This document shows, piece by piece, positions 18,950-31,165 of a stretch of 64,000 bases of DNA (position 1 is the first letter of the stretch; the number at the start of each line of letters is the position of its first letter). Made by a program: the position numbers and the translations under genes. This DNA comes from Chroococcidiopsis sp. TS-821 (lineage in GTDB: Bacteria; Cyanobacteriota; Cyanobacteriia; Cyanobacteriales; Chroococcidiopsidaceae), in the NCBI RefSeq assembly GCF_002939305.1, contig NZ_MVDI01000013.1, positions 1 through 64,000 on the forward strand, read 5' to 3'. The notes below the pieces were generated by a model. It was not told the origin of the DNA. It searched no databases and saw only the letters and a list, made by a program, of their open reading frames with translations.

Positions 18950-20041
18950 ATGACTACTCAGTACCGCATTACCCTCTTACCAGGCGATGGCATTGGTCCA
19001 GAAATCATGTTAGTCGCGGTAGATGTACTGAAGGTAGTGGGTAAACAGCTAGATATCCGTTTTGAATTTCAAGAAGCCTTGATTGGAGGTGCAGCGATTG
19101 ATGCGACAGGAGAACCGCTACCACCCACGACACTAGAAATGTGTAAAAACAGCGATGCTGTTTTGCTTGCGGCGATCGGTGGTTACAAGTGGGACAATCT
19201 ACCGCGTCATCTCCGCCCAGAAACCGGATTACTTGCACTGCGTGCGGGTTTGGGACTATTTGCTAACTTGCGCCCAGCTAAAATTTTGCCACAACTAATC
19301 GATGCCTCTAGCTTGAAGCCGGAAGTTGTTGCTGGCGTAGATATCATGGTGGTACGCGAACTGACTGGCGGAGTTTATTTTGGTCAACCCAAAGGCATTT
19401 TCACCACCGAAACCGGAGAAAAACGCGGTGTGAATACAATGGCGTACACCGAAGCCGAAATCGATCGCATCGGGCGCGTCGCGTTTGAAACCGCACGAAA
19501 ACGCCAAAGAAAACTTTGTTCAGTCGATAAAGCAAATGTGTTAGAAGTTTCGCAGTTGTGGCGCGATCGCATGACGCAATTAGCCACCGAATACCCGGAC
19601 GTCGAACTTTCGCATATGTACGTCGATAACGCCGCGATGCAGTTGGTGCGCTATCCCAAGCAATTTGACACGATTGTGACAGGTAATCTCTTCGGTGACA
19701 TCCTTTCGGATGCAGCGGCGATGTTGACAGGAAGTATCGGAATGTTACCTTCTGCCAGTTTAGGCGCTTCTGGTCCTGGAGTGTTTGAACCTGTTCATGG
19801 TTCCGCCCCCGACATTGCAGGACAAGATAAAGCGAATCCTTTAGCGCAAGTTCTAAGTGCGGCGATGATGCTGCGCTATGGATTAAATCAACCTGTAGCC
19901 GCCGATCGCATCGAAAATGCGGTGTTGCAAGTTTTAGATCGCGGCGATCGCACTGGCGATATTATGTCTCCAGGAATGAATCTCTTAGGCTGTCGGGCAA
20001 TGGGTGAAGCTTTGATTGAAGTTTTGAGAAATGAGGGGTGA
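18950..20041 (+). CDS. leuB: 3-isopropylmalate dehydrogenase
   Basis: A 363-residue enzyme of leucine biosynthesis that oxidises and decarboxylates 3-isopropylmalate with NAD+. Landmarks are the N-terminal [12 protein letters not shown], the substrate-binding arginines in [15 protein letters not shown] (about residues 92-106), [10 protein letters not shown] (about 135-144) and the metal-site segment [28 protein letters not shown] (about 244-271). The NAD-binding [14 protein letters not shown] closes the set. Length is normal. No other leu genes are near, as usual in cyanobacteria. Confidence 0.95.
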
Positions 20042-20127
20042 GTTAACCTCATTAAAACTCATAACAGGGTGCAACAAAGATCGGTAGTGCATATAAAATC
20101 TAAACGAACTTAATTGACCTACTAGAA

Positions 20128-20343
20128 TTGAGTGACCCTATACTACTAAGAGCGGCTCGTCAAATCTATCTCACCTATCGAGAATTGCGACCAGACACCG
20201 CCAAACAACCAACAGGTGTGGTAATCAATCGCTTAACCTATCGTGGGAGGTTACTTTTTTCCAAAAAACCAATTCTTCTACCTTTAGAGGAATTCATTCC
20301 CATCGGTGAAATTGAAAACAACGAAGACGAATCTGATTTTTGA
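20128..20343 (+). CDS. small conserved-type hypothetical protein
   Basis: 71 residues starting at a TTG (TTGAGTGACCCT). The sequence is basic and aromatic in the middle (YLTYRELRPDTAKQPTGVV, RLTYRGRLLFSKKP) and acidic at the end (EIENNEDESDF). It lacks membrane helices and I recognise no named family. It lies between leuB and pilD with the same direction, 86 bp after leuB. The reading frame and composition argue that it is real. Confidence 0.6.
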   Translation: MSDPILLRAARQIYLTYRELRPDTAKQPTGVVINRLTYRGRLLFSKKPILLPLEEFIPIGEIENNEDESDF

Positions 20344-20419
20344 TCGCTGATGGCGAGTGCTTCTAAACAAAGTAGGGAAACATAATGAAGGAAAAAGCCC
20401 TACACTATAGTTCCTCTTA

Positions 20420-21244
20420 ATGATCGACTTTCTATTTACGAGCTTCGCTACTGTCATTGTATTTGCCTTAGGCGCATCCATTGGTAGCTTTATCAATGTC
20501 GTTGTTTACCGCTTACCCGCTGGATTATCTATTGTTTCGCCACCTTCGCGCTGTCCGCGTTGCTTGCATCGGTTAGGGAAAGGAGAAAATATTCCCGTTC
20601 TAGGTTGGTTACGGTTAAAAGGGCGCTGTCGTCACTGTCGTGCAGCGATCGCCGTTCGCTATCCGCTGGTAGAAGCTGCGACAGGATTGATATTTTTACT
20701 GATTTTTTGGCGATTTGGTGTTTCGATGCAAACAATCGGATCTTGGATATTTTGCAGTTGGCTATTGGCATTATCACTGATCGACCTTGATACAATGACG
20801 CTACCAGATCGCTTGACAAAATCAGGATTAGTTGTCGGTTTGCTCTTTGGCGTCATCGCCAGTTTAATCGTACAAGCCCCTGTCGAGGGGGTCGCGTATC
20901 AGTTCATGTCGCGTGTCGTTGGCGCAGTGTTAGGAATCTGGATGTTTGATGCGATCGCGCTATTCGGTTCGCTAGCACTAGGACAAGCAGCAATGGGCGC
21001 AGGAGATGCTAAATTAGCTGCAATGTTGGGCGCATGGTTAGGGTGGAAATATCTCTTGTTAGCGGGGTTTCTAGCGTGTGCTATTGGCGCATTTATAGGT
21101 GGCGGGGCGATCGCCTTAGGTATCCTCTCTAGACGGCAGAAAATGCCTTTTGGTCCCTTTCTCGCGCTAGGTGCAGTCATTGCCCTCTTCAGTGGCGATG
21201 CGATTCTCGCTGCCTATTTCCGGTTAATCTTTCCGGCAATTTAA
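20420..21244 (+). CDS. pilD: type IV prepilin peptidase
   Basis: A 274-residue polytopic A24 aspartic protease that cleaves and N-methylates type IV pilin precursors in the inner membrane. The N-terminal domain is present, with two CxxC pairs (CPRC and CRHC) forming the cytosolic zinc site at about residues 41-73. The two catalytic aspartates are visible in DLDTMTLPD (about 115-123) and GAGDAKLAAMLG (about 193-204). About seven further hydrophobic segments follow. Type IV pili drive phototaxis and DNA uptake; a comFB gene lies at 62 kb. Confidence 0.92.
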   Translation: MIDFLFTSFATVIVFALGASIGSFINVVVYRLPAGLSIVSPPSRCPRCLHRLGKGENIPVLGWLRLKGRCRHCRAAIAVRYPLVEAATGLIFLLIFWRFGVSMQTIGSWIFCSWLLALSLIDLDTMTLPDRLTKSGLVVGLLFGVIASLIVQAPVEGVAYQFMSRVVGAVLGIWMFDAIALFGSLALGQAAMGAGDAKLAAMLGAWLGWKYLLLAGFLACAIGAFIGGGAIALGILSRRQKMPFGPFLALGAVIALFSGDAILAAYFRLIFPAI

Positions 21245-21304
21245 TTTATTCTCCTCTGCGTCCTGTACTCTCTCCGACTGCCTCAGTTCTGCTAAAATCT
21301 CTGT

Positions 21305-21535
21305 GTGTCATGGATCACGCTAAGAACCACAAGCAGGCGCTGGGAAGCTGAGTTAATGTGTCAATTGTTAACGGCGCACGATATTCCTGCGCGGGTAGTT
21401 GACTTGGGAATAGCGTCATATTTTGGCAGCGGTAGCCCAGCTGCGTTACAAGTCCACGCTCAAGATCGATGGGCAGCGCTACTTTTACTCAGCCCGATTG
21501 AAGCCGAGGACGATGATACATCGTCTAGCGAATAG
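21305..21535 (+). CDS. DUF2007-like small protein
   Basis: 76 residues from a GTG start (GTGTCATGGATC). The pattern is LRTTSRRWEAELMCQLLTAHDIPARVVD...SGSPAALQVHAQDRWAALLLL, followed by an acidic tail. It matches the DUF2007 'putative prokaryotic signal-transducing protein' style, a small PII-like alpha/beta fold. No ligand or partner is known to me. It lies between pilD and accD, same strand. Confidence 0.65.
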   Translation: MSWITLRTTSRRWEAELMCQLLTAHDIPARVVDLGIASYFGSGSPAALQVHAQDRWAALLLLSPIEAEDDDTSSSE

Positions 21536-21707
21536 TTGGAATACCAAGATTTTTGGGGTTAGGCAATTATCTGAGTTTTCACCCTCTGCCTTCTTGCTTC
21601 CTACCCCTCGCCACACCATCCAAAACTAAAAATTATAGGAGTTTATTTCCAAGCGGCTCCTGACTTGATTAATATAAATATTGCTACTCAAAATATGGCA
21701 AAGTTTA

Positions 21708-22628
21708 ATGTCTCTGTTTGATTGGTTTGCAAATCGGCGAAAGTCTGGTCCTATTAGCCAGGAACGCCAAGAGCGTGACATTGCTGATGGGTTGTGGAGT
21801 AAATGTGCGGCTTGTGGAGTTTTGGCGTATACCAAAGACCTGCGAGCTAATCAAATGGTCTGCCCAGAGTGTGGACATCACGTACGGGTAGATAGCAACG
21901 AACGCATCCGACAATTGATCGACGCGAATACCTGGCAACCACTCGATGAGTCGATCGGCCCAACCGATCCGCTACAATTTCGCGATCGCAAAGCGTATAG
22001 CGATCGCCTCCGCGAAACGCAGGAAAAAACTGGGTTAGTCGATGCTGTCCAAACAGGTTTCGGGCAACTCGATAAATTGCCTGTCGCTTTGGCAGTGATG
22101 GACTTCCGATTTATGGGCGGTAGTATGGGTTCGGTTGTCGGCGAAAAAATTACGCGCTTAATCGAACGCGCCACCCAAAAGCGCTATCCCGTAATTATTG
22201 TTTGTGCATCGGGTGGAGCAAGAATGCAAGAGGGAATGCTCAGCCTCATGCAAATGGCAAAAATTTCCGCTGCCTTAGAATGCCATCGCGAAGCTCGACT
22301 TTTATACATTCCTGTTTTGACAAATCCAACAACCGGTGGAGTCACTGCCAGCTTTGCCATGTTGGGCGATATCATCATCGCCGAACCCAAAGCAACGATC
22401 GGATTTGCTGGTCGCCGCGTTATCGAACAAACGTTACGCGAAAAGTTACCAGAAGAGTTTCAAACTGCAGAAGATTTATTGCAGCACGGCTTTGTCGATG
22501 CGATCGTGCCGAGAACTCAACTGAAAAAAACGCTAGCACAGCTAATCGACCTGCACCAACCCGTCGCCCCTACGCATCACCAGATATTGCAACTAGAAGC
22601 AATTGCGTTAACGGCGAGAGAAGGATGA
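21708..22628 (+). CDS. accD: acetyl-CoA carboxylase carboxyltransferase, beta subunit
   Basis: 306 residues from the ATG at 21708 ([12 protein letters not shown]); an upstream in-frame TTG is less likely. An N-terminal C4 zinc finger (CAACGVLAY...CPECGHH, about residues 29-53) precedes the crotonase-like carboxyltransferase domain, with [21 protein letters not shown] near 165-185 and [13 protein letters not shown] near 205-217. With AccA it moves the carboxyl group from biotin to acetyl-CoA in fatty acid synthesis. AccA, AccB and AccC are not in the window. Confidence 0.95.
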
Positions 22629-22826
22629 GTGGCTAGTGATGAGTGATGAGTTATGTTCGCGTAGCGTGCCAAAGGCATTTATTAAAAGAATCTTAATAAC
22701 TCAACACGCCTCGGCTTCCCTGCTGGAAAAACTCAGATTCTTATCAAAAGTAAACAAATTGCTCAGTGACATGATATTGATATTAGAGCAGCTTAATCTC
22801 TAACAGTCACTTAACAATCATTCATT

Positions 22827-23024
22827 ATGGGTTTTGCAGATGTGTCCATTGCAGAATTAGCAGCGGACTACAACCTCACAGTAGAAGAAGTGTTTTCTTT
22901 GTGCGAGCAACTGGGTATTGCTTACAAGTCGTCTAAGACTCGTCTGCCCTTAGAAGATGCCAAAGCAATTATCTCCCACATTAAGGAGAAAGAGACAGAT
23001 TCTCAAACAGAGACTTCTACATGA
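22827..23024 (+). CDS. IF-2 N-terminal-like small protein
   Basis: 65 residues. MGFADVSIAELAADYNLTVEEVFSLCEQLGI is the helix-rich pattern of the translation initiation factor IF-2 N-terminal (IF2_N) module. The rest is a short linker and an acidic/Thr-rich tail. It is far too small to be IF-2. The small size and the site upstream of psbV are as in other cyanobacteria. Function unknown. Confidence 0.65.
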   Translation: MGFADVSIAELAADYNLTVEEVFSLCEQLGIAYKSSKTRLPLEDAKAIISHIKEKETDSQTETST

Positions 23025-23181
23025 TATTGCGTCAGAACTTCCTTGTACGAGTGTCGCGTATCTTCAGGTGCAAAGCCCGTAACTGGCAAGCGCCATCACA
23101 ACTCAAATGAAATGTGATGAGGAAGAGATTAAGCTATCGCTTATAAAGCTGTGTTGAGGTCGAAATTTTTAAGAGGAAACA

Positions 23182-23673
23182 ATGTTTAAAAGATTGATCG
23201 GGCTTGCGGTGGCTACTATATTGCTGACATTTGGTGTCATTGTCGGCAAGGCAGCCGCAGTGGAACTAAGCGAAGCTGTGCGAACAGTACCGCTGAATGA
23301 CCAAGGCGATACCATGGTGCTGAGCCTCAAACAAGTCCAAGAAGGGAAACGCTTATTTAACTTTGCTTGCGCGCAGTGTCACGTTGGAGGTGTCACTAAG
23401 ACAAACCAAAACGTAGGGCTAGACCCCGAAACACTTGCTTTGGCAACCCCACCCCGCAATAATATTGAGGGACTTGTGGATTACATGCACAACCCCACTA
23501 CCTATGACGGTGAAGAAGAAATTGCAGAGTTACACCCTAGCACCAAGAGTGCGGATATTTACCCAGCAATGCGGAATCTTACCGAGGATGACTTAGTGGC
23601 GATCGCAGGTCATATTCTGCTCCAGCCCAAAATTGTCGGCGATCGCTGGGGCGGCGGCAAGATTTACTACTAA
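23182..23673 (+). CDS. psbV: photosystem II cytochrome c-550
   Basis: A 163-residue precursor: signal peptide about 1-26 (cleavage after GKAAA), mature start VELSEAVRTVPLN. The haem site CAQCH is at residues 63-67 and the second axial ligand is His118 in AELHPSTKS. It is an extrinsic lumenal subunit of PSII that stabilises the Mn cluster and its Ca2+/Cl- requirement. The sequence ends with DRWGGGKIYY, the normal PsbV terminus. GAGGAAACA precedes the ATG. A hairpin follows, then psbV2 and petE. Confidence 0.96.
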   Translation: MFKRLIGLAVATILLTFGVIVGKAAAVELSEAVRTVPLNDQGDTMVLSLKQVQEGKRLFNFACAQCHVGGVTKTNQNVGLDPETLALATPPRNNIEGLVDYMHNPTTYDGEEEIAELHPSTKSADIYPAMRNLTEDDLVAIAGHILLQPKIVGDRWGGGKIYY

Positions 23674-23685
23674 ACTCTTGTCAAC

Positions 23686-23745
23686 AAGCGATTAGCTTTT
23701 AGCCATTAGCTAACCAAAGCAAAGCTAAGAGCTAATTGCTTTTCT
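23686..23745 (+). terminator. hairpin after psbV
   Basis: AAGCGATTAGCTTTTAGC (23686-23703) pairs with GCTAAGAGCTAATTGCTT (23724-23741), leaving a few mismatches, and a T-rich tail (TTTCTG) follows. It probably ends psbV transcription before psbV2, or lets part of it read through. Confidence 0.6.
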
Positions 23746-23831
23746 GTTATTTAGATTAACTGCAATTTTTCTCACGAGTATCTCAATTTCTAGCCATTCA
23801 CCCTACCGTAATCGCGTTTCAATTTAAATAA

Positions 23832-24326
23832 ATGTTAAGTACAAGCTGCGTGCGCCGTGTAATTATAATTTGGTCTATCGTTGTCGTTCTATTCCTACAG
23901 ATTACTTCTCCCGCTCTTGCTGCTGTTGACCCTTATCTCGCGCGCTATTTGCGTCTTACTGAACCAATTGCCTTAGAAGTTGACGAACAAGGCACTACCC
24001 GCGAGTTTTCCCTCGAAGAAATATCACAAGGCAAAGTACTTTTTGAGAACAACTGCCTAAACTGTCACGTAGGCGGCGCAACACTCCCAGATCCCCAAAC
24101 CTCACTAGCACTGAATAAGCTAAAAGGAGCCAACCCTCCCAGAGATAATGTGAATAATCTTGTCGCCTTTCTCCGACAGCCAATGACCTACGATGGCTCG
24201 GAAGAAACATACTGGTGTCGCCAAGTACCTGAATCCTGGATGTCACAAGAGGAAATAGAAAGCTTAGCCGCGTTTGTTCTTACAGCAGCACAAAAGGCTA
24301 AAGGATGGGGTGCAGAAGAGTTCTAA
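23832..24326 (+). CDS. psbV2: cytochrome c-550-like protein PsbV2
   Basis: A 164-residue paralogue of PsbV. The signal peptide is about residues 1-30 (cleavage after ALA), then AVDPYLARYL. The haem motif CLNCH is at 75-79. In the PsbV counterpart of the second axial-ligand segment this protein has ETYWCRQ, so Cys129 stands where PsbV has His. PsbV2 of Thermosynechococcus is known for a His/Cys haem with a very low potential. The C-terminal GWGAEEF differs from PsbV. Placed directly after psbV and before petE. Its role in the lumen is not settled. Confidence 0.9.
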   Translation: MLSTSCVRRVIIIWSIVVVLFLQITSPALAAVDPYLARYLRLTEPIALEVDEQGTTREFSLEEISQGKVLFENNCLNCHVGGATLPDPQTSLALNKLKGANPPRDNVNNLVAFLRQPMTYDGSEETYWCRQVPESWMSQEEIESLAAFVLTAAQKAKGWGAEEF

Positions 24327-24459
24327 GGCATTTTTGTGTCACATCCAGTGCGTTTTTTGATTTTTTATAAGAAAAAATGTATCTATGACAACTTGTCGTA
24401 CTTGGTGTTTGTTTTTATTTAAAATTAAATAGCGACGATAAACCTCTTTGGAGAAAACT

Positions 24460-24879
24460 ATGAAATTTATTGCTGCAACTTTGCGGCGCTTCGGTACAGT
24501 TGTATTAGCACTCGTACTCGTTGTCGGTAGCTTTGCGTTCTTTGCTCCTACAGCAGCGGCCGAAACTTACCAAGTTAAACTAGGTTCAGATAAAGGAATG
24601 TTAGTTTTCGATCCAGCAAAACTAACAATTAAACCTGGTGACACAATTGAATGGATAAACAACAAAGTACCTCCCCATAACGTTGTCTTCGATGCAGCCA
24701 AGAATCCCACTAAGAGTGCAGATTTAGCAAAAAGTCTGTCTCACAAGCAGTTGCTCATGACACCAGGTCAACAAGTTAAAACCACCTTCCCAGAAGATGC
24801 ACCTGCAGGCGATTACACCTACTACTGCGAACCCCACCGCGGTGCTGGTATGATTGGCACCATCACTGTTGAAGGCTAA
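24460..24879 (+). CDS. petE: plastocyanin
   Basis: 139 residues from the ATG at 24460 (GGAGAAAACT precedes it; a TTG four codons upstream is less likely). The lumenal signal peptide ends after PTAAA, and the mature protein begins ETYQVKLGS. The four type-1 copper ligands are His73 (PPHNVVF), Cys123, His126 and Met131 (YYCEPHRGAGM). It carries electrons from cytochrome b6f to photosystem I. Plastocyanin is copper-induced in many cyanobacteria, but no regulatory site was identified here. A terminator follows. Confidence 0.96.
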   Translation: MKFIAATLRRFGTVVLALVLVVGSFAFFAPTAAAETYQVKLGSDKGMLVFDPAKLTIKPGDTIEWINNKVPPHNVVFDAAKNPTKSADLAKSLSHKQLLMTPGQQVKTTFPEDAPAGDYTYYCEPHRGAGMIGTITVEG

Positions 24880-24938
24880 TCGTGCTACTTGCGAGTTGCG
24901 TGGTATAAATTAATTTCGCACGAGATAACTTCATATCA

Positions 24939-24979
24939 ATGCCTCAAGAGCCACAACATCAACTCTTGGGGCATTTTGA
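24939..24979 (+). terminator. terminator after petE
   Basis: AATGCCTCAAGAG (from 24939) pairs with CTCTTGGGGCATT (24963-24975), a long stem with few mismatches, followed by TTTGATT. It lies about 60 bp after the plastocyanin stop. Confidence 0.7.
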
Positions 24980-25244
24980 TTGTTGAATAGCATAGAGTGG
25001 CTCTTCTCCCAGTTTTGGGCTACCGCGTACGTATCCCCTAAATACACCCTAGTGCGCCTTTGGCAGTATTATCCCGTGGTAGCAACTGGCGTGGATTTAA
25101 GAGGCTGAAGTTGGTATAGTTACTCAGCAATAACACTCTTTCAATACACTTTCACACCAACTCGTTGCTAAATCCATCCACTAGTTAGAAGATATAAAGT
25201 TAAAAATTGGTTATTGTGGTTGCCAGTTTCGCACAACAAAACGC

Positions 25245-25958
25245 ATGGTTCCTATTCGAGATAATAATCCCACGTCAATTACGCCTTACGTTACCTACGG
25301 GCTAATTGCGGCTAACGTTCTAGCCTTCTTATATGAAGCAAGTCTATCACCACAGCAACTTGATGCCTTTTTCCATTTAGCGGCAATTGTCCCGCGCGAA
25401 CTATCTGCTAGCTTTGCCGGAATTCCCGTAAATCAACCTGTACCAGAGTGGGCGACTTTAATCACATCGCAATTCCTCCACGGTGGGCTTTTGCATCTAG
25501 GAGGAAATATGCTGTTTTTGTGGATTTTTGGCAATAATGTCGAAGACCGTTTGGGACATTTTAAGTTTTTGTTCTTCTACCTAACTTGCGGCGTTTTAGC
25601 AGGCTTAGCGCAGTGGTTCTTCTCGCAAGGTTCGTCAATTCCTTCGTTGGGTGCAAGTGGCGCGATCGCAGGCGTGATGGGTGCATACATTATTCGCTTC
25701 CCCACGGCTGAGGTGTTAACGCTCATTCCCTTAGGATTTTACTTTCCGGCAGTGCGACTTCCCGCGTTTTACTTTCTCGGTTTTTGGTTTCTCCAGCAAG
25801 CTGCGTATGGCTTTGCGAGCTTAGAAGCTCGTACTAATATTGGTATGGAAAGCGGTGGAATTGCCTACTGGGCGCACGCTGGTGGTTTCGTCTTCGGTGC
25901 GATTTTAGGTCCACTCTTAGGCTTATTTAAAGACGATTCGCAGCAAGAATATCTCTAA
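25245..25958 (+). CDS. rhomboid intramembrane serine protease (copy 1)
   Basis: A 237-residue polytopic protein of about six or seven membrane helices. The catalytic serine lies in GASGAIAGVMGAY at about residues 140-152, and the histidine lies in YWAHAGGFVFGAILG at about 203-217. The HGGLLHLGGNMLFLWIFGNNVEDRLGH segment (loop 1, conserved Asn and Arg) is present. Rhomboids cleave transmembrane substrates in the bilayer. The start MVPIRDNNPTSITPYV is shared with copy 2. The two are tandem duplicates with 240 bp between them. Confidence 0.88.
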   Translation: MVPIRDNNPTSITPYVTYGLIAANVLAFLYEASLSPQQLDAFFHLAAIVPRELSASFAGIPVNQPVPEWATLITSQFLHGGLLHLGGNMLFLWIFGNNVEDRLGHFKFLFFYLTCGVLAGLAQWFFSQGSSIPSLGASGAIAGVMGAYIIRFPTAEVLTLIPLGFYFPAVRLPAFYFLGFWFLQQAAYGFASLEARTNIGMESGGIAYWAHAGGFVFGAILGPLLGLFKDDSQQEYL

Positions 25959-26196
25959 GCACAGAATGTAAAGGGAAAACACTTTCCTTTTACTTCTGCA
26001 TCAAATGGGGCAAAAAATATAGATTTAAAACTTAGCCTTTATTACCGTTCATTTCAAGAAAAAACACGCTGGTAACTGCTTAAAGATTGCATGCCAGCAA
26101 TAAAGGATTTAGCTTTTAGCTATCATGAATAATTAGTGGTGGTAAAGCAGCAGACGATACATTAGCATTTGTATTTGATGAATAGGAAGCAAATCT

Positions 26197-26889
26197 GTGG
26201 TACCACTGCGAGATAATAACCCAACATCGATCACTCCCTATGTAACCTATGCGCTAGTTGGCGCAAATATATTCATTTTCTTATATCAAGCTACGCTGTC
26301 ACCGCAAGAACTACAAGCATTTTTCAATCGCGCAGCAGTTGTACCGTGTCAACTCTCATCAACCTGTCCTGTTCCTGTCGATCAGGGCATTCCCGAATGG
26401 TTGACGCTCATTACATCGCAATTTTTGCACGGCGGTCTGCTGCATTTAGGCGGCAATATGCTCTTTTTGTGGGTGTTTGGTAACAATATTGAAGATCGTT
26501 TAGGTCATATCAAATATCTGATTTTCTACCTCAGTTGTGGTGTTTTAGCGGCATTAGCACAGTGGTTTTTTTCCCAAAATTCTACGACTCCGATGGTAGG
26601 TGCGAGTGGCGCGATCGCTGGAGTCATGGGCGCATACATTCTCCGCTATCCTAAAGCTCAAGTATTAACTCTCGTTCCTATCGGGTTTTTCATCACAACA
26701 TTCCGCATTCCGGCGTATTTCTTTTTAGGATTTTGGTTCGTTCAGCAAGCATTCTACGGTATAGCAAGCTTACCTGCACGCACTAACATAGGAATGGAAG
26801 GCGGCGGTGTTGCCTACTGGGCGCACGCTGGTGGTTTCGTATTTGGCGCAATTTTAGGTCCGATGTTGGGTTTAATGCGGCGCGATTAG
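26197..26889 (+). CDS. rhomboid intramembrane serine protease (copy 2)
   Basis: 230 residues from a GTG start; the first residues VPLRDNNPTSITPYVTYA align with copy 1. The catalytic Ser is in GASGAIAGVMGAY, the His in YWAHAGGFVFGAILG, and loop 1 is HGGLLHLGGNMLFLWVFGNNIEDRLGH. A cysteine-containing insert (PCQLSSTCPVP) replaces the shorter loop of copy 1, and the C-terminus ends in a short MRRD tail. Both copies look active. The split into two copies suggests different substrates. The ~235-bp gap between the copies holds only promoter-like AT-rich DNA. Confidence 0.87.
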   Translation: MVPLRDNNPTSITPYVTYALVGANIFIFLYQATLSPQELQAFFNRAAVVPCQLSSTCPVPVDQGIPEWLTLITSQFLHGGLLHLGGNMLFLWVFGNNIEDRLGHIKYLIFYLSCGVLAALAQWFFSQNSTTPMVGASGAIAGVMGAYILRYPKAQVLTLVPIGFFITTFRIPAYFFLGFWFVQQAFYGIASLPARTNIGMEGGGVAYWAHAGGFVFGAILGPMLGLMRRD

Positions 26890-26973: not shown

Positions 26974-29160
26974 ATGAACGCAAATCGCACACAGCAAATT
27001 GCCAGCATTGTCGAAAAACGCCGTCCTTTGGCAGATAAAATTGCAACAACAGCAGCAAATTTAGCAACGCTTTCGCAAGCACTACGAAATCTCGAAGCGC
27101 ATCGCCAACACATTCTCGCGCAAGTAGATGATGAGAGTAGCTACGGACGGTTGCAAGAAATTGATTTAGCGTCAATACAGAATAACATTGCCATAGAATT
27201 GCGATCGCTAGCGCAACTTCAGCAACGTTTTGCGCGCAATACACTCAATATTGGCGTAGTAGGACGCGCCCGCCAAGGAAAAAGTCGATTCCTGCAAAGT
27301 TTAACAGGATTGACCGCCGCTGAGATTCCGGATGGCGATCGCCAACATTGTACAGGAGTACGCAGTACAATTCATCACAATCCGAGTAGCGATATTTACG
27401 GAGAAGTGTGGTTTCATTCAGAGCGCTCGTTTTTGGAGGAAGTCATCGCGCCTTATTACGAACAGCTACGTTTAGGCGCAAAACCAATTACACTTACAGA
27501 GTTTACAAGTAAACCGCTACCACCATTACCGCGCGAACTACCTGGATATGCTGAACCAGGGGCAATGTACGAACATTTAGGCAGGTATCACGCCAATATC
27601 GACAAATACCGTCACTTACTGCGATCGCCTTCGCCGCGTAAAATACCCAGAGAAGAAATTCGCGAATACGTCGCGCAAGATACAACCGATGGTCAGCGCG
27701 TGTTTTTCAACTATCTTGCAGTTCGGGAAGTGAAAATCGTCTGTAGCTTTCCGCACGCAGATGTTGGACAAATTGCCTTAGTTGATATGCCAGGATTAGG
27801 CGATACTGGCGTTGGCGATGCAGAAAGACTTGTCAAAACCTTAGGAAACGATGTCGATGTGGTATTGTTTGTACGGATGCCAAAATCCTCCGGTGACTAC
27901 TGGGCGGATGTTGATGTCCGGTTGTATGATACTGCACGCGCGGCATTAGTTGACTTACCACTCGAATTGTGGTCGTTTATGGTGCTAAATCGCACCGCTG
28001 CTGACTCGAAAAACGGCGATAACTTCAACAACTGCAAAGACTTAGCCGACACATTAGCCGAAAAACACATCAAAGTAGTCGATTGTGCGATCGCAAATTG
28101 TGCCGATCCTGCGGCGGCAAACCAAGTTTTAGACCAAATTCTCGACTATCTGGCAACGCATATTACAACTTTAGATGAGAAGTATGCGACCTCTTGCCAA
28201 GAGCGATTACTGCAACTTCAGAATACAGTAAATATAGAGCTAGAAAAAGCCAACAAAGCTTTAGCCCTAGCAGTCGGTGAGAATTGGTTTCCTTTATTCG
28301 TCGAATTGTTTGAGCAATTATGGAATGAACTAACAAGTGGTTTAGAAGCACTGCTACGACATCTCAAAGCACAACGCAACGAACAAAATAGCGATTTTAA
28401 ACAACAAGTCGCCACCGCAATTGCTGCGTGTCGTCAGGATACCGGAATTCCGAGTATCGAGCAAATTGAAAAACGACGCGATCGCACCGGTGGTTATCCG
28501 AATGCTTACTACCAGTATATGCACGAAATTCGCGCGCATCTATCGCAGCATTTTTTAGCTTTGGATGTTGGTTTACAGCGATCGCTAACGCGAGTAAAGT
28601 CACAAGTTGCTGATGTGTTAATCCATCAAGCGCGGTTAGGCGGTATAACTTCGGCAACAGGTGTGGAATTTTTACAAGAAATTGCGCAGCAACTACCCGA
28701 TACTTTACCAACGTTGAAACTGGGATTTGAAATCTTAGCAGAGTTTGAGATTTCCTATCGCGGGTTGATTCAACATCGAATTCGCAAGCATTTGGATGGA
28801 TTAACACCCGATGAAACAACGTTGCAACTTTCTAAATCGCCTTCGGCAAAAGAAATTTTATCTAACCTAAAAACACTTCATGCAGAAGCGGTGTATGGCT
28901 GCGAGACGGCGTTAGAAGACTTACTCAGCGAACCTAGTTTAGCAGCGTTTGCAATCGTGGAAGAGTTTGTCGATCGCATTCTTCGCGCAGAAGGGGCAAA
29001 ATCAGAATGGCGGATCTTTTTAGAAGAAGCAAGGGCGGAAGTTTGGCAAGCGGAGTTTATGGCTTTAGGCGATCGCACGCGACTGCGACGGGAATGGTTT
29101 GATGCGATCGCGCGCGCTACGGCGGCGAATCAATCGAATGCGATGCAGTTTTTGGGTTAG
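26974..29160 (+). CDS. dynamin-like P-loop GTPase
   Basis: 728 residues. A helical N-terminal segment (1-90, likely coiled coil) precedes a GTPase domain: P-loop GRARQGKS at 97-104, G3 DMPGLGDTGVG at 271-281, and a G4-like VLNRTAADS near 337-345 in place of the classical NKxD. About 170 residues separate G1 and G3, more than in Ras-type domains and similar to dynamin-like proteins. The remainder (about 400-728) is mostly helical, with no strong membrane helix. Bacterial dynamin-like proteins remodel membranes or act in conflict systems. The partner genes follow within 100 bp on the same strand. The family name is uncertain. Confidence 0.7.
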   Translation: MNANRTQQIASIVEKRRPLADKIATTAANLATLSQALRNLEAHRQHILAQVDDESSYGRLQEIDLASIQNNIAIELRSLAQLQQRFARNTLNIGVVGRARQGKSRFLQSLTGLTAAEIPDGDRQHCTGVRSTIHHNPSSDIYGEVWFHSERSFLEEVIAPYYEQLRLGAKPITLTEFTSKPLPPLPRELPGYAEPGAMYEHLGRYHANIDKYRHLLRSPSPRKIPREEIREYVAQDTTDGQRVFFNYLAVREVKIVCSFPHADVGQIALVDMPGLGDTGVGDAERLVKTLGNDVDVVLFVRMPKSSGDYWADVDVRLYDTARAALVDLPLELWSFMVLNRTAADSKNGDNFNNCKDLADTLAEKHIKVVDCAIANCADPAAANQVLDQILDYLATHITTLDEKYATSCQERLLQLQNTVNIELEKANKALALAVGENWFPLFVELFEQLWNELTSGLEALLRHLKAQRNEQNSDFKQQVATAIAACRQDTGIPSIEQIEKRRDRTGGYPNAYYQYMHEIRAHLSQHFLALDVGLQRSLTRVKSQVADVLIHQARLGGITSATGVEFLQEIAQQLPDTLPTLKLGFEILAEFEISYRGLIQHRIRKHLDGLTPDETTLQLSKSPSAKEILSNLKTLHAEAVYGCETALEDLLSEPSLAAFAIVEEFVDRILRAEGAKSEWRIFLEEARAEVWQAEFMALGDRTRLRREWFDAIARATAANQSNAMQFLG

Positions 29161-29230
29161 ATTCGGGGCGGATAGAGGGCACGATGTTGCGATTATTGGG
29201 TGTAGGTATATAGAGGAAAGATGAGGGTTG

Positions 29231-30211
29231 ATGCACGAAATTAAAATTACGATGTTGGGTCCTAGTGGGGTGGGTAAGACGACTTTACTGACCGCAATTT
29301 ATGAGCAATTCGAAAGTAATATTGGGAAAACGAATTTACAACTTACACCTGATGAAGAGAGTTCGGCGATTCTACAAGAAAGGTTAGTGGAACTAAAAAC
29401 TTTACTCGACGATTTTGAAGCAACTGGGGGAATTCAAGGAACCGAAGGCGAACCGGAAGAGTTGCGATCGTTTATCTTTGGTTTAGGGCAAAAAGGTCAA
29501 AAACCTTCTTTACAATTACATTTTCAAGATTATCCTGGTGGCTATCATGCAGCAAAAGCCACACCAGAAAAAAGACAATTTGTCAAGAGTTTACTGACTG
29601 ATTGTGTCGCGGTTCTCATTGCAATTGATGCACCAGCATTGATGGAACAAAACGGTAAATGGCATGAATTTATTAATCGTCCACAGCAAATGACAGATTT
29701 ATTCAAAACAGCGTATCAAGATTTAGATTCACCGCGATTAGTCATCTTTGCGCCCGTAAAATGTGAAAAATATCTCCAAAGCGAAGCGTCCGCTAAAGAA
29801 CTTTTGCAACGCGTCAGAGAAGGATATAGCAAACTTATCGACTTATTTAACTCAGCCAATCTACTTCCTAAAGTTGCTGCGGTGGTGACTCCGGTACAAA
29901 CAGTCGGTAGCGTCGTTTTTTCCAGAATTGATACAAACAATAGTACACCACATTTTCGCTTTCGTAAAATTAGCCACGACGCCGTGTATAATCCACAAAA
30001 TAGCGAACAACCACTAAGATACTTATTGCGGTTTATCTTAAAGTTGCATATCGACACGCGATCGCGTAGTTGGGGAATATTTAGTTTCCTCCGCGATTGG
30101 CTAGGAAGAGACTATCATCTCAAGCAAGCCGTTAGTCAATTTGCCAGTGAGTGTAAAACAAACAATGGCTTCGCCTTACTTCAAGGAGAAGACTTATTAA
30201 AAATTAGCTAA
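29231..30211 (+). CDS. small GTPase-like protein (TRAFAC-type)
   Basis: 326 residues from the ATG at 29231 (a TTG sits one codon before). The N-terminus HEIKITMLGPSGVGKTTLL has a P-loop at 10-17. G3 is in LQLHFQDYPGGYH, where DYPGG replaces DxxG. A G4-like PVKCEKY follows. This is the layout of SRP-receptor-beta- or 'double-GTPase'-like NTPases that regulate multi-gene conflict systems in bacteria. The C-terminal part (about 240-326) is basic and helical. It lies 70 bp after the dynamin-like GTPase and is followed, 100 bp on, by a membrane-anchored partner. It may be the switch that signals to the large GTPase. Confidence 0.65.
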   Translation: MHEIKITMLGPSGVGKTTLLTAIYEQFESNIGKTNLQLTPDEESSAILQERLVELKTLLDDFEATGGIQGTEGEPEELRSFIFGLGQKGQKPSLQLHFQDYPGGYHAAKATPEKRQFVKSLLTDCVAVLIAIDAPALMEQNGKWHEFINRPQQMTDLFKTAYQDLDSPRLVIFAPVKCEKYLQSEASAKELLQRVREGYSKLIDLFNSANLLPKVAAVVTPVQTVGSVVFSRIDTNNSTPHFRFRKISHDAVYNPQNSEQPLRYLLRFILKLHIDTRSRSWGIFSFLRDWLGRDYHLKQAVSQFASECKTNNGFALLQGEDLLKIS

Positions 30212-30238
30212 AACCTCCAAAATCTCTCCCTATCTCTT

Positions 30239-30262
30239 ATCCTTTGTGTCTTTGTGGTTCGT
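30239..30262. repeat. dispersed 'CACAAAGACAC' repeat
   Basis: The + strand reads CCTTTGTGTCTTTGTGGTTCG, the reverse complement of CGAACCACAAAGACACAAAGG. A close copy (ACCACAAAGACACGAAGGACG) lies inside the 5-oxoprolinase gene at 58911-58940. It sits in the gap between the two genes of the GTPase cluster. Confidence 0.6.
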
Positions 30263-30310
30263 TGGTTCGTTTCAACAAGATTACTATTTACACATTAAAT
30301 ATTATGAACT

Positions 30311-31165
30311 ATGAATATCTACATCCAAAGTCGCGGTGTTCCTCCAGACGATGATTATTGCTGGCAACCCGAAGTACCAAATATTCTCAAAAAAAATCGT
30401 ATCAATGACTTAATTCAAAGCGAATCACCGTCAGTAATTTTAGCGCGGTTTGATAGCACACTCCTCCTACTCATCACCAGCTTAGAATCAAGCGAAAGAA
30501 AAGATTTTCAAGGACGTACAATCCGAAATTCTGTGGCTTGGGTAGGAGAAGATACAGAAGCAAATGAAAAAAAACTACGCGCGATCGCAGCGTGTGCTTT
30601 ACGCGATGAACTGCGAGAAAATTTAAGAGCAGAAATTGACAATGCCGTAACTTTTGGTAGTAACAACGGTTTTCAAGTCAACTTCGATGCCTTAAGTCAT
30701 TTAGCAATTGAAGAAGTTATTAGCGTACGCAACTTTCCCGCCAATTTAGATAAAAAACTTGGCAAAAATTCAAAACAGCAACGCGACGAACTTGCTTACG
30801 AACTCGAACAACACAATTTACCAAAAGAAAATGCGCCCTTACTTGTTGTCACAGGTATTAAATCCGAATCAACTTTAATGGCAGCCGGAGTGTGGCGGGG
30901 GTTATCTAATCTCGTACAAACAGGAGGATGGAAAGACCCTTATAAAAAAAGTTCCACGTCCGAAAAAACAATTACGAGCAGTCACTCGAAAAATCAGAAA
31001 AACAATCACTTAGTTTTACTCATTTTATTACTCGCAGGCATCGCGATCGCAATTCTACTTTTATTTGTCATTGCCGAAACTAACCTCCAGTCGCAACCAG
31101 AACTCAAACCAACTTCGCAATCAATTTTTCCGCTGCGTCTAGTTAAGTTCGTTCACTCTTTATAG
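30311..31165 (+). CDS. C-terminally membrane-anchored partner protein
   Basis: 284 residues. The N-terminus (MNIYIQSRGVPPDDDYCWQPEVPN) and an alpha/beta-like body extend to about 215. A Ser/Lys-rich linker follows, then one transmembrane helix (LVLLILLLAGIAIAILLLFVIA, about 233-254) and a short tail. It is a tail-anchored protein that would face the cytosol. I do not recognise the family. It follows the two GTPases and ends 23 bp inside the convergent MFS gene. It could be a membrane tether or effector recruited by the GTPases. Confidence 0.7.
   Translation: MNIYIQSRGVPPDDDYCWQPEVPNILKKNRINDLIQSESPSVILARFDSTLLLLITSLESSERKDFQGRTIRNSVAWVGEDTEANEKKLRAIAACALRDELRENLRAEIDNAVTFGSNNGFQVNFDALSHLAIEEVISVRNFPANLDKKLGKNSKQQRDELAYELEQHNLPKENAPLLVVTGIKSESTLMAAGVWRGLSNLVQTGGWKDPYKKSSTSEKTITSSHSKNQKNNHLVLLILLLAGIAIAILLLFVIAETNLQSQPELKPTSQSIFPLRLVKFVHSL

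Follow-up and report, generated by a model that had tools for sequence, protein, structure and literature searches.

DO-GTPases have been tied to conflict systems, and those that occur with GAP1 make up the 'GTPase-centric' systems (Kaur et al. 2020, PMC7159879). As the available text of that paper describes them, these systems combine GAP1, with its N, M and C domains, with variable effectors and either GASH or FNIII, and they are enriched in multicellular hosts. Among cyanobacterial dynamins, an 'HSR1 group' has been noted in which a dynamin is followed downstream by an HSR1 GTP-binding protein (PMC5827413), and the dynamin DynA protects Bacillus subtilis populations against phage lysis (PMC8844932). 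Herein, we describe three adjacent genes of the cyanobacterium Chroococcidiopsis sp. TS-821, located at 26974-31165 in a stretch of 64,000 nucleotides (contig NZ_MVDI01000013.1, positions 1 to 64,000; hereafter the window). The genes encode a dynamin-like GTPase (P1), a second GTPase that its sequence places in the DO-GTPase clade (P2) and a predicted tail-anchored protein (P3). The trio is a conserved gene unit and may constitute a membrane-associated GTPase module. Its features are as follows.

26974..29160, + strand: P1, dynamin-like GTPase of 728 amino acids (aa) (open reading frame; Dynamin_N PF00350, Foldseek match to BDLP 2j69)
27262..27285, + strand: P1 G1/P-loop GRARQGKS, residues 97-104 (GxxxQGKS in 32/32 aligned members)
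27784..27804, + strand: P1 G3 motif DMPGLGD, residues 271-277 (D[MLV]PGLGD in 32/32)
27982..27990, + strand: P1 VLN, residues 337-339, at the G4 place (Asn339 invariant, no NKxD)
29228..30211, + strand: P2, DO-GTPase-clade GTPase (open reading frame; DO-GTPase2 PF19993)
29258..29281, + strand: P2 G1 motif GPSGVGKT (sequence motif)
29528..29542, + strand: P2 G3 motif DYPGG (sequence motif)
30311..31165, + strand: P3, predicted tail-anchored partner of 284 aa (open reading frame; no family above cut-off)
30311..30646, + strand: P3 residues 1-112, candidate longin-like region of the order β-β-α-β-β-β-α-α (DSSP of the model; weak Foldseek matches)
31016..31072, + strand: P3 predicted transmembrane segment, residues 236-254 (Kyte-Doolittle)

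An earlier note, made from the letters of the window alone, had pointed to three co-directional genes here, separated by gaps of 70-100 bp, with a 728-residue dynamin-like GTPase and a second GTPase carrying a DYPGG G3 box. We confirmed this layout. All three reading frames lie on the + strand, the motifs of both GTPases were found as listed, and the gaps measure 70 and 99 bp when P2 starts at the ATG at 29231. P2 has 327 aa from the TTG at 29228 and 326 aa from this ATG; the ATG is the likelier start because most aligned relatives begin there or close by.

The trio is a real gene unit. We searched for P1, P2 and P3 each across 386 cyanobacterial genomes and found P1 in 33, P2 in 26 and P3 in 26. 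All three were present in 25 genomes, and in every one of these the genes were adjacent, on a single strand and in the order P1-P2-P3. With seven loci from named genomes and a second copy in one of the 25 (G255), we compiled 33 trio loci, 32 of them distinct (L033 and L118 are seemingly one contig). Since 25 of 386 genomes carry all three genes and 33/33 loci keep strand and order, chance is excluded. The trio thus stays together across genomes, a point that the earlier note had left to be checked, and it does so over a phylum boundary as well. P1 stood alone in eight genomes, with weak matches in three of them (G231, G338 and G044), and the only P3-only genome (G181, E 6.5e-4) and the only P2-only genome (G016, E 3.8e-4, internal stops) were both marginal. 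Gaps of at most 45 bp separated P1 from P2 in 26/33 loci and P2 from P3 in 29/33, values that are approximate as starts were taken at the first start codon. The nearest named genome, Gloeocapsopsis crepidinum, has a P2 that is 96% identical to the window's. In one locus (L032) P2 and P3 lie at a contig end, and in G091 P3 is interrupted by a transposase gene. A partial second P1 copy (residues 1-364) lies at L034:12787-13887, about 900 bp after the split P3 of that locus.

P1 is predicted to have a bacterial dynamin-like protein (BDLP) fold with a helical stalk. It scored 26.1 bits against Dynamin_N (E 1e-5), just under the cut-off of 27, and all three P1 relatives scanned lay above that cut-off at 27.2-33.7 bits. 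The predicted model (predicted local distance difference test [pLDDT], 86; predicted template-modelling score [pTM], 0.60) had BDLP 2j69 as its top Foldseek match (E 2.5e-13, probability 1.00, template-modelling [TM] score 0.29/0.31). SynDLP (7zw6), IniA, the oligomerised dynamin pair 5oxf/5owv and mitofusin were also matched, and 59 matches reached E<=0.001. The likeness of P1 to these bacterial dynamins lies in the predicted fold; it differs from them in that LQ follows GxxxQGKS, in that NKxD is missing, and in its two fixed partners, a DO-GTPase and a predicted tail-anchored protein. Nearly all cyanobacterial dynamins are described as sharing a P-loop extension, GKS/TxL/INALL/I, i.e. (L/I)NAL(L/I) (PMC5827413). 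P1 is unlike the cyanobacterial BDLPs of that account, as far as its available text goes, since the extended P-loop is missing: P1 has LQ where the extension has NA, and this Gln108 is invariant in 32/32 members. Two points weigh against the module proposed below. The TM-scores of P1 to full dynamins are low, as with 2j69, and the place of G4 keeps only an invariant Asn (32/32). Because P1 is without NKxD, its nucleotide specificity is uncertain.

By its sequence, P2 belongs to the DO-GTPase clade of the GTPase-centric conflict systems. The window's P2 matched DO-GTPase2 at 28.5 bits (cut-off, 27), and 31 of the 32 P2 members matched this family at E<=0.01. The motifs P[VI][KR]CE and P[VI][QE]T, which we read as G4 and G5 respectively, were present in all 32. 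In the Walker B region, DYPGG occurred in 15/32 members and DxxGE in 9/32. DO-GTPases have a conserved glutamate in the Walker B motif, and the available text leaves unstated which glutamate is meant (PMC7159879).

P3 is predicted to be a tail-anchored protein with a single C-terminal transmembrane helix and a cytosolic N-terminal domain. The hydrophobic stretch reaches a Kyte-Doolittle value of 3.42 from residue 236, with about 25-30 residues after it; the structural model has a helix at 229-260. Values of at least 1.9 after residue 150 were obtained for P3 in 26/33 loci. P3 of the other 7/33 has no clear transmembrane helix, which weighs against the module proposed below, and only one of these, L034, is plainly split. 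Given the predicted helix, the role of membrane tether that the earlier note gave to this protein is plausible. That note could not name its family, and our searches agree: the window's P3 stayed below the cut-off of every Pfam family and had no match at E<=1 in NCBIfam or PADLOC, and no Pfam family was matched by more than three of 30 P3 members. Comparison with PDB sequences gave weak matches only, mostly in the transmembrane helix and tail region. Residues W18, P23, S41, R69, W77, W195 and R196 are near-invariant.

The longin domain has strands and helices in the order β-β-α-β-β-β-α-α, and longin SNAREs carry a C-terminal tail anchor. The P3 model has a mean pLDDT of 81, which rises to about 90 over residues 1-200 except for a dip at 131-140. 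For residues 1-112, DSSP of this model gave the longin order, followed by a small alpha/beta part and the transmembrane helix. A Foldseek search returned 559 matches at E<=10, of which the best 50 were inspected. Among these best 50 of 559 were 11 longin/DENN-type chains, including GATOR1, FLCN-FNIP2, Lst4, VAMP7 and a Lokiarchaeal roadblock-longin protein; some of the matched chains we take to be longin subunits. The longin domain is a PAS-like fold, and in the available text longin and roadblock domains are described as binding GTPases (PMC3521125). P3 residues 1-112 thus resemble the longin/DENN GTPase regulators (GATOR1, FLCN-FNIP, Lst4, VAMP7) and the MglB roadblock protein in strand and helix order, in weak structural matches and in a gene that adjoins a GTPase gene. 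P3 is unlike these regulators in that no sequence match was found, TM-scores were 0.14-0.34 and it is bacterial, though its predicted tail anchor resembles that of longin SNAREs. Several observations weigh against the assignment. No match reached E<=0.001; the first was TagF (1.7e-3), which also held places 2 and 4, and the best longin-type match had E 0.017. Ten of the best 50 were LOV (PAS-like) chains. On this evidence from the model, we regard P3 as longin-like with moderate confidence.

We compared pairwise protein distances over 25 genomes (24 for P3) by Spearman correlation and by Mantel tests with 500 permutations. The reference was the best GyrA match per genome, which is imperfect as a paralog exists. 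Within the trio, the distance correlations were 0.68 for P1-P2, 0.67 for P2-P3 and 0.41 for P1-P3; with GyrA, they were 0.30 for P1, 0.16 for P2 and 0.36 for P3. The Mantel p was 0.002 for P1-P2, P2-P3, P1-P3 and P3-GyrA, 0.012 for P1-GyrA and 0.062 for P2-GyrA. Judged from these distances, P2 clearly departs from the history of its genome, and P3 less clearly. P2 also looks like the hub of the trio: its correlations with P1 and with P3 are stronger than that between P1 and P3, which fits a middle position. As a point against the proposed module, the P1-P3 correlation barely exceeds that of P3 with GyrA. Two genomes of one genus, G157 and G255, differ by 11% in GyrA and by 64-66% in P1 and P2 when the first G255 copy is taken; P1 of the second copy is likewise only 35% identical.

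Gene order indicates that the trio is accessory, and it tends to move as a set, presumably horizontally. We consider it accessory because three genomes, G308, G024 and G042, are without it beside a conserved flank. G308, of the window's family, matches window positions 18950-26889 in order through both rhomboid genes and then has other genes. G024 and G042 share four consecutive genes with G019 of the same genus (75-98% identity), ending in a rhomboid gene. G019 has the trio beside that gene, whereas G024 and G042 do not; G042 has a P1 relative elsewhere. As only one flank is conserved in G308, G024 and G042, these are not clean two-sided empty sites. The rhomboid proteases were considered as partners and rejected, with relatives found in 13/13 genomes tested, with or without an adjoining trio; the rhomboid genes would rather be a landmark of the insertion place.

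In the window, two tandem rhomboid protease genes (25245-25958 and 26197-26889, +) lie directly upstream of P1. Further upstream, 23182-24879 holds a pair of related genes whose products (163 and 164 aa) by eye resemble haem c proteins, and a gene that by eye resembles one for a copper protein; this gene order is kept in G308 and G005. A convergent gene for a major facilitator superfamily transporter extends 23 bp into the end of P3. The gaps between P1, P2 and P3 have no sigma-70-type promoter-like site, and counts of promoter-like and terminator-like sites in the trio region were unremarkable against those of shuffled sequence.

Homology searches indicate that the trio is shared by cyanobacteria and at least one distant actinobacterium. 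Nonomuraea gerenzanensis has adjacent P1 and P2 relatives (40-41% identity); the gene after them encodes a P3 homolog (profile comparison, probability 98.6, E 1e-15) that has a hydrophobic stretch at its C-terminus. This record comes from a plasmid collection, although at 11.85 million bases it is chromosome-like. A co-directional CHAT-domain/TPR gene directly precedes the Nonomuraea trio (L129:5233-7962, +). A Streptomyces aurantiacus plasmid carries P1 (27%), a weak P2 (23%, below the Pfam cut-off) and a third gene of 290 aa with a C-terminal hydrophobic stretch by eye. The first approximately 100 residues of this third protein align to P3 less firmly (direct profile comparison, probability 81), and a search with the P3 profile over the whole Streptomyces record did not find the gene. 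The trio is also present in a contig labelled Chloroflexaceae (L037); its P1 and P2 share 62-65% identity with those of the window, so that the contig is possibly mis-binned. P1 relatives occurred in 10 records of the plasmid collection and P2 relatives in four; viral contigs gave neither P1 nor P2, and the phage collection gave no P1.

Several loci depart from the layout of the window. In L127 (9279-13181, -), a single frame of 1300 aa comprises AAA_35 (E 5e-18), a Swt1-like HEPN domain (E 2.5e-26; motif RNEEAH at 493) and then P1. A fourth gene, of AAA type, comes directly after P3 in L127 and L101. The two fourth genes are homologs of each other (E 8e-92) and homologous to the AAA part of the L127 fusion; AAA_35 is above cut-off only in L101, whose fourth gene also has a sub-threshold vWA match. 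P3 of both loci is without a transmembrane helix, P3 of L113 ends in WD40 repeats, and L119, L125 and L131 have a small related fourth gene after P3. On the Stanieria plasmid pSTA7437.02 (L133, 7001-14907) and in G320 (L104, 8061-14779), genes for a GTPase and then for a protein of about 1000 aa come after that of a P1-like dynamin. The GTPase of L104 is a DO-GTPase1 and that of L133 a 28% identical homolog. The two large proteins are mutually homologous (E 1e-35) and sit where GAP1 would sit. Neither has a Pfam family above cut-off, the L133 protein, which was the one compared, shows no similarity to P3, and a likeness to GAP1-N is our presumption. L133 adds a protein of 473 aa with a zinc ribbon and transmembrane helices by eye. 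On the Nostoc plasmid pNsp_h (L134), a P1-like dynamin is divergent to an operon with a DO-GTPase1 gene. The common theme is a dynamin, a DO-GTPase and a third protein. Two Calothrix plasmids (L132 and L136) have P1 relatives next to genes of the filamentous-haemagglutinin type, and the one in L132 also has a D15-type outer-membrane gene nearby; neither record gave a P2 match.

Of the described systems, the nearest kind appears to be that of the DO-GTPase/GAP1 systems, from which the trio would differ by a P3 with no GAP1 match. The likenesses are the DO-GTPase2 match of P2, a dedicated third protein downstream of the GTPase, a transmembrane helix in the set and P1 relatives beside DO-GTPase1-type genes (L104, L134, and a homolog in L133). 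The differences are a P3 of 284 aa instead of three domains, a dynamin as core member and no regular variable effector seen; the word dynamin is absent from the main text of PMC7159879, as from that of the second DO-GTPase paper (PMC11237479). No GAP1 family was found in the Pfam scan of the third proteins of the window, Nonomuraea and Streptomyces, nor among the 25 most frequent of the 111 Pfam families that 30 P3 members hit at E<=1. Searches for GAP1-M in five genomes and for GAP1-N2 in one record found nothing. The earlier note had likened the set to NTPase-regulated conflict systems, and this holds for the clade of P2; it is not borne out for P3, which gave no GAP1 match, or for a regular effector gene. 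The note had also proposed an undescribed system. Our literature search on dynamins with conflict, phage or neighbourhood and on longin, which covered few subscription papers, found no description of the trio, but its novelty may partly overlap the HSR1 group in what is available of PMC5827413.

With even confidence for and against, we propose that the trio is a membrane-associated GTPase module in which P3 anchors and controls P2 and P2 licenses P1 under stress or invasion. The C-terminal helix of P3 would fix it in the membrane, leaving the longin-like domain in the cytosol, and P3 would bind and regulate P2 as longin and roadblock proteins do small GTPases. Active P2 would then recruit or license P1, which would assemble on the membrane. 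The module would most likely be used on envelope damage or on a sensed invader. In one outcome, the membrane would be kept intact, much as phage lysis is delayed by DynA; where HEPN or AAA partners are present, a damaging response might be triggered. Since DynA alone slows phage lysis, P1 itself is possibly the effector. DynA is in this respect a model for P1, being a dynamin with a phage-related membrane role. Compared by description, it differs in that the abstract names no DO-GTPase or tail-anchored partner (PMC8844932).

Given the clade of P2, the HEPN and AAA partners, the plasmid carriage, the patchy distribution and the broken copies, we favor conflict over upkeep. The conflict role is not certain because HEPN/AAA-type partners are few and a clear defence-island signal is missing. 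In PADLOC-DB 2.0.0, the best match of the trio was P1 to JAB (E 0.0039); P2 reached 0.013 and P3 had none. We compared 134 neighbours of 18 trio loci (of 26 from the 386-genome set) with 134 neighbours of 19 gyrA loci, the controls being sampled from 154 and excluding the gyrA neighbourhood of G066 as it borders the trio. At E<=1e-15, 144 PADLOC models were matched beside the trio and 53 beside gyrA, counts of models rather than proteins, many of which describe one system. The most-matched model had two members beside the trio and five beside gyrA. Furthermore, no fourth gene family recurs beyond close relatives among the neighbours, some of which were scanned with Pfam.

This lack of a clear defence-island signal speaks for membrane upkeep without a conflict role, in which P1 would remodel or repair plasma or thylakoid membranes and P2 and P3 would determine where and when, as may be the case for dynamin pairs and PSP-linked GTPases. 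The closeness of the predicted P1 fold to BDLP and SynDLP agrees with upkeep, as does a DO-GTPase of psp operons, for which a role in membrane-related stresses has been described as a prediction (PMC11237479, available text). However, upkeep fits poorly with the patchy distribution, the close kin that keep the flank but not the trio and the P1 and P2 distances that track GyrA poorly. The plasmid carriage, the broken copies in some loci and the HEPN and AAA fusions or neighbours count against it in the same way, and we consider upkeep alone rather unlikely.

An abortive-infection switch, which we hold to be just as doubtful, would make the trio the sensing or threshold part, with the cell killed or arrested via P1 on the membrane or via linked or unlinked AAA/HEPN effectors. 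The fusion of P1 to AAA_35 and the Swt1-like HEPN with RNEEAH, the AAA fourth genes of L127 and L101, the CHAT-domain gene just upstream in Nonomuraea and the tie of the DO-GTPase clade to conflict systems (PMC7159879, available text) point this way. Such partners are nevertheless few among the scanned neighbours (HEPN at one locus, AAA at two, CHAT at one) and absent from the window, and beyond close relatives no neighbour family is recurrent. For P3, an unrelated alpha/beta fold that serves as membrane anchor only and not as GTPase regulator would explain the weak Foldseek scores and the first match to TagF. We find this equally unlikely, as the strand-helix order fits longin, longin-type chains recur and the P2-P3 distances correlate. 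Finally, it is still less probable that the trio was already noted as the HSR1 group: this group has a GTP-binding protein downstream of the dynamin and 14/32 P2 members match MMR_HSR1 weakly (best E 4.9e-4), but P1 with its Gln108 is without the extension said to be near-universal, the window's P2 is under the MMR_HSR1 cut-off (17.0 vs 21.9 bits) and the available account does not mention a third gene (PMC5827413).

If the proposed module holds, it would link bacterial dynamins, few of whose partners in the cell are known, to a GTPase switch of their own and to a regulator anchored in the membrane. It would also set bacterial dynamins inside the DO-GTPase network, so far described with GAP1 instead. 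A bolder reading, which we offer as a long shot, is that the trio is a bacterial counterpart of the eukaryotic membrane-traffic machine: a tail-anchored longin protein of VAMP7-like architecture, a GTPase switch dedicated to it and a dynamin of the mitofusin/BDLP kind that acts on the membrane, serving as an inducible envelope defence in cyanobacteria and actinobacteria. The function of the trio is testable directly in culturable cyanobacteria. If the longin reading of P3 is true, bacteria would have a set of tail-anchored longin protein, GTPase and dynamin, which would bear on how membrane traffic arose.

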